Shown piece after piece: positions 4,702 to 8,099 of a stretch of DNA of 35,352 nucleotides (its first letter is position 1; every line of letters starts with the position of its first letter). Source of the stretch: Desulfobacterales bacterium (lineage in GTDB: Bacteria; Desulfobacterota; Desulfobacteria; Desulfobacterales; Desulfosalsimonadaceae). Below the pieces are notes generated by a model that was given only the letters and a program-made list of their open reading frames with translations, was not told the origin of the DNA and did not search any database. A program made the translations under genes and the position numbers. The stretch is taken from positions 1 to 35,352 of the forward strand of contig JAGXLR010000010.1 in assembly GCA_018334555.1 (NCBI GenBank). The letters are read 5' to 3'.

Positions 4702-5148
4702 ATGAAGAAAACATTAATCATTTTAGCAATCATTGGTGTGTGCGTGGCTTTGTCATCCGGTCCGGTTTTCGGGGATTCCTGGCTGCAAGGCAAGAAGTAT
4801 GGAATATTCAATATATTGGGTATCCAGGCGGACCATACCTATCATTGCGCGAGCAGTAGCTGCTGGTCATGGACCGGCGGCGAGTCCGGCGGCTCTTATA
4901 TTTCTTACTCCGGCGGTTACGGCGATTACGGTGATGCAAGATGCACATCGACGAACTGGGGGTGCCGTTTTATATATGCTGTTCAGGGGGTTTGCCACCA
5001 GGAGGCCAACCGCGGGTTGTATACAAACGGCAGGGATATTTCCAGGGGCGGCGTCGGCGGGTATTGGCTGACCGGGGCTGTCTTCGGAACCTACGGTGAA
5101 TGGTCGTCCTGGACCGCGTGCAAGACCGCCTGCTGGCTGTGGTGGTAA
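4702..5148 (+). CDS. Small secreted Cys/Trp-rich protein under riboswitch control, family unknown
   Basis: A 148-residue protein with a clear signal peptide: a KK start, a hydrophobic stretch, and likely cleavage after VFG (residue 24). The mature part is short and rich in Gly, Tyr and Trp, and has seven cysteines (49, 54, 81, 88, 98, 140, 144), suggesting a disulfide-stabilised extracellular or periplasmic fold. It holds a Cys-His pair in QGVCHQEANR and ends in WLWW. I do not recognise the family. The start follows an AGGGGGGG run. It is the only gene between the riboswitch and the terminator at 5199-5251, so it is the direct target of c-di-GMP. That context suggests a role in surface attachment, motility-to-biofilm change or the extracellular matrix, but this is inference. 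Confidence 0.85.
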   Translation: MKKTLIILAIIGVCVALSSGPVFGDSWLQGKKYGIFNILGIQADHTYHCASSSCWSWTGGESGGSYISYSGGYGDYGDARCTSTNWGCRFIYAVQGVCHQEANRGLYTNGRDISRGGVGGYWLTGAVFGTYGEWSSWTACKTACWLWW

Positions 5149-5342: not shown

Positions 5343-6710
5343 ATGCTAAGTCGGCGAAGCAAAATTATATTAATAGGCTTTTTTTTGCTCCTCATCCTGG
5401 CGGTAGGCATATACCTATATGCGGCGGATGGGCCGGTGGTTATCGAGGAAAGCCGCCATATTCAGAAAGAAACAGGCGTAAACCAACTACCGGCCCCTGT
5501 TTCAGGAAAAAATCTGAAGCCGGGCCCGGCCCCGCTGTCCCGGATAAAGAGGGCCGCCCCGGGAGCTTCGGCTGATGATACGGCGCCAAGGGATAACGAG
5601 CCCTATGTGTCCTGTCCTGAGAGGATCGTCGGCTTGCTGGGCGTTGACATGGAAACGATGCGCGAAAAACGGGGGGCGTTTAAAAACACCATTGTCCACG
5701 TGGAGTGGATGGATCGGGTCAATAATGTTCTGGAAGGCCTTGACCCCCAAAAAAAGGCGGCGATTATAAAAAACCACACCACGCTTCTCTACCTGAAAGA
5801 TCTGCTCAACGAGGCCTATCTCACGGGGGAAATGGATTACGAAACCTTTACCAGGGCTTTGGCCGATCTGATGAAGTGGCATCAGCATACTTTTGACGCG
5901 ATGTTAAGCGATGCGGATTATGAAACCCTCTTTGAGTTAAAGCCTGAAATGGCCGAAGAGATGATCGATGATATAATAGAGGCCTCGCCGAGGTACAGCT
6001 TTGTCCTCAACCCGGATATATCGACAGAAGAAGTCACAAAACAGGTTCAGGGTTACAAGCTGGAAGAAGTCGATTCCCATTTCAAAAAAATGATATACGA
6101 AAGGGATCGGATTGGCAAAAAAATCAATGAGGGCAAGATAACCCTTGAAGAGGCGAGGAAGGCCCTGCATGAGAGCCAGCAGGCATTTATTGATAAATGC
6201 AAGCAAATGTTGACCGAAGAGGAAATAAAAACGATTTTCGGATCTGTTGAAGCCCTCGAAACCGGCCAGACCCAGACGGAGCCGCCGGCGGTCCGGGGCG
6301 ATTCAGATGTAAAAGAACTCGGTTTTAAGATCGAAAACCCCCGTACGAGCATAGAAAATGTCAGGCAGAGCCTTGATAAAGAAAAAATCGAAGATATCAG
6401 ATTCTTTTACCAGCAGCGGGATAAAGAGAGAGAGGCCCTTATCGAGCGGCTAAACGCCGGAGAAATTAAAGAGAGGGATATGGAAAATATCTCCAGGAAT
6501 ATAGACGCGGCATACGAAGAAAACTGTCGGAGCACGTTAACGGATAAGGCCTATCAAATGATTTTTGAAAAAAAGCCCCCTGCTGAAAGCGATGCCGCCG
6601 CCGCTGCTGATGATATGTCAAGGAGCGAGGATATTACGGCCGCAGAAATGGAAGGGGAATCTGAAGCGTCTGCGGAGCAAATTCTAGAGCAGGCTGAACA
6701 GGCCCAGTAA
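5343..6710 (+). CDS. Membrane-anchored helical repeat protein, paralogue of the next gene
   Basis: A 455-residue protein of no family I can name. Residues 8-27 form a single hydrophobic segment near the N terminus, probably a membrane anchor with the rest outside the cytoplasm. A low-complexity Pro/Ala linker follows, then a helical domain (about 95-205, starting GLLGVDMETMREKRG). Two related charged helical repeats come next, near 223-300 (NPDISTEEV ... IFG) and 330-405 (IENPRTSIENV ... IFE). The tail is acidic and Ala-rich. The helical domain and the repeats match the next gene clearly by eye (LKDLLNEAYLTGEMD beside IKDRIDNAHLNGDID), so the pair arose by duplication. There is no DUF1573 domain here. 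The 15-base gap to the next gene suggests one operon. Function unknown; a role in the cell envelope is inference. Confidence 0.85.
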   Translation: MLSRRSKIILIGFFLLLILAVGIYLYAADGPVVIEESRHIQKETGVNQLPAPVSGKNLKPGPAPLSRIKRAAPGASADDTAPRDNEPYVSCPERIVGLLGVDMETMREKRGAFKNTIVHVEWMDRVNNVLEGLDPQKKAAIIKNHTTLLYLKDLLNEAYLTGEMDYETFTRALADLMKWHQHTFDAMLSDADYETLFELKPEMAEEMIDDIIEASPRYSFVLNPDISTEEVTKQVQGYKLEEVDSHFKKMIYERDRIGKKINEGKITLEEARKALHESQQAFIDKCKQMLTEEEIKTIFGSVEALETGQTQTEPPAVRGDSDVKELGFKIENPRTSIENVRQSLDKEKIEDIRFFYQQRDKEREALIERLNAGEIKERDMENISRNIDAAYEENCRSTLTDKAYQMIFEKKPPAESDAAAAADDMSRSEDITAAEMEGESEASAEQILEQAEQAQ

Positions 6711-6725
6711 AGAGGCCCGGCGACG

Positions 6726-8099
6726 ATGCGCAGCACGCGATTGGTTATACTTATCGTTTTTTCCTTGATGGTTAGTCCGGCAGGGCTTCGTGCCGCTGAC
6801 CACCCCCCCCCGGAGCTTTCATATCCGAAACCCCTTCTTTCAAAGCTGGGGCTCGACGCCCGGGATGTGGTCAAAAACAGGGATGAATTCAAAACGGACA
6901 GGATCCACCGCATGTGGATGGCCCATGTGCATTCGGCGATTGCCGACATTGATACGGAAAAGGAGAAACGCCTTATCAACATCCACGCATCCATGCGCTA
7001 CATAAAGGACCGGATAGATAACGCCCACCTCAACGGGGACATCGATAGGCAAACATTTTCAGCCCAATCCGCCGAACTGATGCGATGGTTTCGGAAGGCC
7101 CATCAGAGGGTGTTGGGCGAACAAGCGGTCGCGGCTTTGTTCTCAGAGGCGGCGAAGAAGGAAATGACAGGCGTTATCGATACGGGCAATGGGCTCGGGT
7201 TTCCGATCCAAAACCCTGAAACCACGGTTGAAATGATAAAAGAAGCGCTTGACGCGCGTACCATTGAGAAAATCGGCCGTTTTTATCAGGAGCATGCGCG
7301 GGAGCTCAGGGATATCAAAAAAATATATAAAAATCCGCCCGCCGATGTACCGAAAGAACAGATCAAAAAGGATATGCGCAGGATTAAAAAAGAGCTGTCC
7401 GCCGCTTACAGGCAGTATTGCCGTAAGCTTTTGACAGATGAGGCCTTTAAGCTGATTTTTGATGTGAAAGAGGAGTCAAAGGCCATCCCGGAAGCGGCGG
7501 TTGAGCAGCCATCCGTTTCGTTCCCGCCGGCTATCGCGGGCTCCGTAGTGACGCACACTTTCAGTATCCAGAATGCCGGCGATGCGAGACTCAATATCCT
7601 GGGCGTTCATACGCAGTGAGGGTGTACGGCCGTCTCGTATTCGAGACGGATCCCCCCCGGCGGGAAGGGAAAAGTCACGTTAAGGATCGACACTAACGGC
7701 AAAGCCGGTGAAAGGGTAAGCCAGAGGGCCACTGTATATACAAATGATCCGGAAAAACCGAAAATCGCTTTAAGCCTTGCCGGCGATGTCATCCGGCCCG
7801 CCTTTATCGAGCCAAAGGCGGCCCGGTTGAGGGGGAGAGCCGGTGAAGAAGTCCGGGTCGATATAAATATCGTCCCGCCCGCCAACAATATGTTCGACAT
7901 CACCGGGGTGGCGGCCGAAAACGGCACGAATATCCGGTTTCAACTGGAAAAAAGCAATGCCGAATCCCGCTCTTTTGTCCTTCATGTATTCAATACCAGG
8001 CCCGAAGCCGGCCGATATTTTGACAAAATCACTCTGTCAACCACCAGCGGCATCAGTCCCGAACTGACCATCCGGGTTTTCGGGATTATTCGCGATTAA
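6726..8099 (+). CDS. Probable selenoprotein: exported helical protein with C-terminal DUF1573 domain, UGA read as Sec298
   Basis: The frame from 6726 is interrupted only by TGA at 7617-7619 and then stays open to the TAA at 8097-8099, giving 457 residues if UGA is decoded. The N terminus is a signal peptide (cleavage near LRAAD). Helical regions match the previous gene. From about residue 259 the sequence is a DUF1573 Ig-like domain with THTFSIQNAGDARLNIL before the stop and RRIPPGGKGKVTLRIDT and TNDPEKP after it. DUF1573 proteins carry a CGCT motif at this spot; here it reads U-G-C-T, so the TGA replaces the first motif Cys exactly. A perfect hairpin follows at SECIS distance. A second beta domain ends the protein (about 366-457). 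A nonsense mutation TGC to TGA is the alternative, but the intact downstream frame and hairpin argue for Sec. The redox-active motif would act in the periplasm. Confidence 0.85.
7617..7649 (+). other. In-frame UGA (Sec) codon and bacterial SECIS-like hairpin
   Basis: TGA at 7617-7619 is followed by CCGTCTCG (7630-7637), loop TATT, and CGAGACGG (7642-7649), a perfect 8-bp stem. An outer GGG at 7620-7622 can also pair with the C-run at 7652-7658. The loop begins 18-19 bases after the UGA, about the spacing in E. coli fdhF. If the closing G-C pair is counted in the loop, it starts with GU, matching the bacterial SECIS preference for a G at the first loop positions. Codons continue through the hairpin without a stop. 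Confidence 0.8.

Follow-up and report, generated by a model that had tools for sequence, protein, structure and literature searches.

Selenoproteins with a DUF1573 domain have been recorded previously. A DUF1573 domain-containing protein with the motif UGC figures in the selenoprotein lists of two reviews (PMC9312934 and PMC13188914), both of which cite Zhang and Gladyshev 2007, and OS_HP2 (pfam07610, UxC) was listed in marine data in 2008 (PMC2398784); the two reviews give no function for DUF1573 selenoproteins. The DNA analyzed in this work, hereafter the window, is a stretch of 35,352 nucleotides, and the protein under study obtained 113 bits with the NCBIfam model NF041425 (OS_HP2 family (seleno)protein), whose curated cut-off is 100. 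The sequence evidence presented below indicated, with a probability of about 0.9, that its gene is a genuine selenoprotein gene and a member of this known family with DUF1573 domain and U-G-C motif. An earlier note on the window had announced a candidate new selenoprotein; the UGA at a conserved redox Cys was upheld as a true Sec codon at this level of confidence, whereas the novelty had to be given up, since the cut-off of NF041425 was passed and DUF1573 proteins with UGC stand in review lists that cite work of 2007.

NF041425 matched in 161 genomes of a phylum sample of 395, in 45 of them over the cut-off, and in the genome of the window three genes, each with TGA, exceeded the cut-off. The window protein shared with OS_HP2 the DUF1573 domain, with Sec or Cys in U/C-G-C, and the passing of the curated cut-off, but differed in its fusion to an N-terminal helical domain (Hs) and in its position in a distinct clade tied to two neighboring proteins, C4 and H2. 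Cys forms of DUF1573 (PF07610) share the Pfam domain with it and differ by TGC or TGT at the site and in that the hairpin is mostly missing. What is new here is the Hs fusion, the gene-order group C4-H2-DUF1573-Sec, an operon of a paralogue with GDSL hydrolase and helical protein, and the deviation of the hairpins at the loop G.

The reading frame, which ended with a TAA stop at 8097-8099, and its single in-frame TGA lay exactly at the coordinates given in the earlier note, which had also noted that the TGA interrupts the DUF1573 domain where the first Cys of CGCT would stand (Table 1). Its description of an exported protein with a helical part plus DUF1573 was likewise borne out, the signal peptide and the helical nature by eye and DUF1573 by Pfam. 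The domain ran across the TGA (residues 260-355; PF07610, 63.8 bits vs. a cut-off of 26.1), and the surrounding sequence was VHTQ-U-GCTAVSYSRRIPPGG, the TGA therefore corresponding to the first Cys of the CGCT motif of the family. Among 55 aligned homologues both the U/C column and the column of the second Cys (C49 and C51 of the alignment) were invariant, and the half downstream of the TGA presented 27-57% identity to relatives without frameshift. A scan of frames alone returned ten more long frames with a single TGA in the window, the longest of 166 + 124 codons vs. 302 + 159 for the present gene.

Table 1. Features of the locus (window positions) and of a paralogous gene group (positions in the locus named).
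Feature	Position	Strand	Basis
C4, Cys-rich secreted protein (148 residues) without family assignment, GVCHQEANRG-type motif; probable client of the module	4702..5148	+	Cys conservation, gene order
H2, helical protein, membrane-anchored (by eye), two Hs-like repeats; probable redox or chaperone partner	5343..6710	+	Conservation
Probable selenoprotein gene, exported (by eye), helical + DUF1573, 457 aa, UGA = Sec298	6726..8099	+	Pfam, NCBIfam
Signal peptide (recognized by eye) followed by helical domain Hs, N-terminal; in relatives Hs is encoded by its own neighboring gene	6726..7481	+	Comparison
Invariant Cys232 of the Hs part	7419-7421	+	Hs conservation
DUF1573 domain, predicted Ig-like (ASH/PapD-like) sandwich, U-G-C in the loop between two strands	7503..7790	+	Pfam, model
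In-frame TGA, probably read as selenocysteine, U of U-G-C-T, residue 298	7617..7619	+	Codon census
TGT, Cys300, second residue of the U-G-C pair	7623..7625	+	Invariant column
Putative SECIS-type hairpin; stem of 8 bp formed by 7630-7637 and 7642-7649, enclosing the loop 7638-7641	7630..7649	+	Fold, recodings, covariation
Second, C-terminal beta-sandwich domain, absent from the earlier note	7797..8096	+	Model (pLDDT 94.8, two Ig-like units)
GDSL hydrolase, helical protein and DUF1573 (Sec or Cys), paralogous clade	L066 5543-8329, also L068, L025, L031		

A structure model of the two-domain region only (7473-8096), built with the 55 homologues, consisted of two Ig-like beta sandwiches at a pLDDT of 94.8, the U-G-C loop being located between strands 40-47 and 51-56. 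The first Ig-like domain (model residues 1-108) matched domains of the ASH/PapD type, namely VesB (4lk4; Z 12.2, rmsd 1.9 over 96 residues), HYDIN (2e6j; Z 10.2), and the pilus chaperones PapD, FimC, YadV, and CsuC (Z 8-9). The whole two-domain model resembled 2qsv of Porphyromonas gingivalis, a relative of the DUF1573 fold (Z 10.5 over 199 residues), to which a weak profile match was also obtained (E 0.0024). To our knowledge, none of VesB, HYDIN, and the pilus chaperones is a selenoprotein. The Ig-like fold is common and by itself shows no function, and the likeness of the window domain to the ASH, HYDIN, and PapD-like Ig domains is one of fold alone, from which a common function does not follow.

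The genes preceding the selenoprotein gene, of a secretion type, formed a conserved group with it. A scan of 84,980 species genomes yielded 12 C4 loci outside the window, all of which carried the label of Desulfobacterales, of a family or genus within it, or of deltaproteobacteria, and the order C4, H2, DUF1573-Sec was kept in all 11 of these whose contig was long enough. Many of the C4 loci contained in addition a separate Hs gene and a gene for a lipocalin-like lipoprotein; the latter lay between C4 and H2 in relatives (e.g., L053 9589-10047; PF13648, E 0.0089, below the cut-off) and was missing in the window. Hs and Sec domain were found in one protein in the window only, among the loci examined, and comparison of the sequences showed that in this genome the final gene for a helical protein has merged with that for the Sec domain, the N-terminal 252 residues representing Hs (helical by eye).

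Past its signal peptide, C4 had an odd number of invariant Cys, seven; H2 had exactly two conserved Cys, Cys286 and Cys395, both kept without exception in 12 members, and Hs one, each of those in H2 and Hs being located shortly ahead of an LT/LS-type motif. No convincing relative of C4 was obtained in searches of Pfam, NCBIfam, and PDB, and its predicted structure (pLDDT 41) was unusable. The appearance of H2 and Hs, together with the GDSL neighbor of a paralogue, had brought the lipase chaperones to mind; this idea was dropped, PF03280 not being among the families listed for the 12 H2 members, and no relation of the window's H2/Hs proteins to the proteobacterial lipase chaperones (PF03280) was shown.

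Paralogues of the selenoprotein occurred in other surroundings. One paralogue, on contig C146 of the genome of the window, and its relatives stood behind a helical protein in six of six loci examined, and a GDSL hydrolase gene preceded the helical protein in four of them, the other two barely reaching that far; a hydrolase maturation group composed of GDSL hydrolase, helical protein, and DUF1573 is possible. The helical neighbor in these loci is like the lipase chaperones of PF03280 in being membrane-anchored (by eye) and helical and in adjoining a GDSL hydrolase gene, but differs from them in scoring below the cut-off, with a single weak match among the six members (E 0.017; 15.5 bits vs. 25.7). 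The neighbors of the most widespread paralogue, which from their sequences we take to be priA, HAD phosphatase, or polA, offered no functional lead.

Gene order, fusion, and conservation of cysteines suggested, tentatively, as the likeliest of the roles considered that the window protein assists C4, the secreted protein encoded alongside it, as a selenothiol redox helper in the periplasm. A part in C4 maturation was proposed because Hs is fused to the Sec domain, the order of the genes is fixed, and each helical repeat has one invariant Cys. The product would be exported by means of its N-terminal signal peptide (recognized by eye), and Sec298-Gly-Cys300, on a loop of the predicted Ig-like PapD/ASH-type sandwich, would cycle between selenolate/thiol and selenenylsulfide; in this way the selenothiol helper might form, shuffle, or keep reduced the cysteines of C4, whereas the H2/Hs repeats, with one invariant Cys each, could serve as docking or resolving partner. 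Against such a helper role, the most widespread paralogue is placed between priA and HAD phosphatase, a position silent on secretion. Less probable, and doubtful as a whole, is the fuller picture of a Sec-based helper in thiol-disulfide exchange that uses a PapD/ASH-type Ig fold and not that of thioredoxin, and that serves a single Cys-rich secreted protein encoded next to it, with helical partners that offer one invariant Cys each and a SECIS class often devoid of the loop guanosine. The two operon types (C4-H2-Hs-Sec and GDSL hydrolase-helical protein-Sec), together with the fusion, provide concrete hypotheses on clients and partners for a family that, according to the citations in the review lists, has been listed since 2007.

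Among the other roles considered, that of a periplasmic selenoenzyme reducing peroxides or electrophiles, which would not act on the neighboring secreted protein, fared best, although we regard it as unlikely. Sec often takes the place of a redox Cys in peroxidases, and the housekeeping neighborhood of the widespread paralogue would suit an enzyme of this type; however, the fold is not that of a peroxidase but an ASH/PapD-like sandwich, an invariant second Cys stands two residues away from the Sec, and the kept C4-H2-Sec gene order speaks for a link to the secreted protein. Two further roles appeared still more improbable, both to a similar degree. The first, a protein that binds or traps metals or metalloids with the U-G-C pair as soft ligand, is in line with the proposal of metals in the earlier note, and a selenolate with a thiol two residues further on does suit soft metals; however, the conserved neighbors that were identified included no transporter, efflux pump, or regulator for metals, and redox chemistry fits the alternation of Sec and Cys equally well. 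According to the second, the Sec domain would be an Ig-like chaperone that assembles a secreted protein, the Sec-Cys pair merely stabilizing it. The fold match to YadV, CsuC, FimC, and PapD and the presence of helical partner proteins agree with this; a structural disulfide, on the other hand, needs no Sec, yet Sec has been kept or regained in most lineages.

The reading of the TGA as a Sec codon was supported by the codons found at the homologous site. When the protein was searched against 98 related genomes, 84 contained a match, mostly bearing one TGA. In a census of 133 distinct loci drawn from the order and the phylum, the codon corresponding to residue 298, at which the earlier note had proposed to look for TGC or TGA in relatives, was TGA in 107 and a Cys codon in 26 (TGC in 20 and TGT in 6), with no other codon present, which excludes a chance origin of the TGA; the G-C after the TGA was kept in every TGA form. 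In a tree of the 133 rows, from which the U/C column was left out, the window fell inside an all-Sec clade of 14 (support 99), and at least 13 changes between Sec and Cys occurred overall, six of them forced by strong branches. These changes, together with a census made up of TGA and Cys codons only, indicated an interchange of Sec and Cys and not decay. A lone TGA mutation followed by a decaying frame, named beforehand as what would speak against the claim, was not the situation encountered, the downstream half being conserved and 107 of the 133 loci having TGA. An alternative in which the TGA acts as a normal stop codon or stems from mutational decay, with translation ending after 297 residues or each half forming a gene of its own, is scarcely credible in spite of the stop demanded by translation table 11 and of the existence of Hs as its own gene in relatives, because the junction between Hs and DUF1573 lies around 45 codons ahead of the TGA, which therefore splits the DUF1573 domain itself, and the half past it is conserved in dozens of genomes with only TGA or Cys codons at the site.

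In bacteria, Sec is inserted when SelB, carrying Sec-tRNA, reads UGA at a downstream hairpin. Decoding of the UGA at 7617-7619 in the window would accordingly involve SelB with Sec-tRNA acting at the putative hairpin (Table 1), which started 10 nt past the UGA and comprised 8 pairs and a 4-base loop. Its folding energy was -14.8 kcal/mol vs. a mean of -6.3 in synonymous recodings, 0.7% of which were equally good. Considering all members, the fold energy relative to synonymous recodings was significantly lower with TGA than with Cys (mean z -1.60 vs. -0.44; p = 1.1e-6). When all 5-bp helices in the alignment were scanned, the nested helix +14..+21/+26..+33 ranked first for double (compensatory) changes; the pair +16/+31 displayed 73 double-change cells vs. 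30.4 (sd 4.6) in shuffles, with 0 of 500 shuffles as high, a count that is not a probability, since shuffling of this kind destroys the phylogenetic relationships among the sequences. All five core pairs were formed in 50 of 107 TGA members vs. 1 of 26 Cys members; many of the remaining TGA members presented the stem in a shifted register, as seen in the sequences and in example folds, and in Cys versions the hairpin was weak or absent. The 60-base region was not unusually stable with respect to dinucleotide shuffles (z -0.64), so that the signal of the hairpin comes from synonymous recodings and covariation and not from this measure. Rfam gave no match at 7630-7649. A second hairpin, +36/+53, paired well and was considered as part of the SECIS, but was left out because it had only 6 double changes, a number equaled in the Cys set despite the smaller size of the latter.

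In the published bacterial SECIS model, the loop measures 3-9 nt and the stem 4-16 bp, the distance from the UGA is 16-37 nt, the MFE is -7.5 kcal/mol or lower, and the first two positions of the loop include a G; some families deviate from this model (PMC13188914). The window hairpin agreed with the first four of these features (loop of 4 nt, stem of 8 bp, 18 nt, and the energy given above). In its lowest-energy form, the loop was UAUU, with no G in the first two positions, whereas opening of the closing G-C pair gave GUAUUC, with G in first place. The same deviation was common in homologues, 33 of the 50 in-register hairpins having no G in the first two positions past the fifth pair. The hairpins without loop G are perhaps a separate SECIS class, and the hairpins of the family as a whole provide natural variants with which the range of SECIS loops accepted by the SelB of Desulfobacterota can be explored.

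The machinery for Sec incorporation was complete as regards the components searched for. The genome of the window contained selB (385 bits), selA (615 bits), and selD (372 bits), all over their cut-offs, as well as a tRNA-Sec (78 bits vs. a gathering score of 47), and the lack of Sec machinery that the earlier note had named as grounds for abandoning its proposal was thus not observed. The selD gene of this genome (L048 1347-2267) was itself read through a UGA near its N-terminus.
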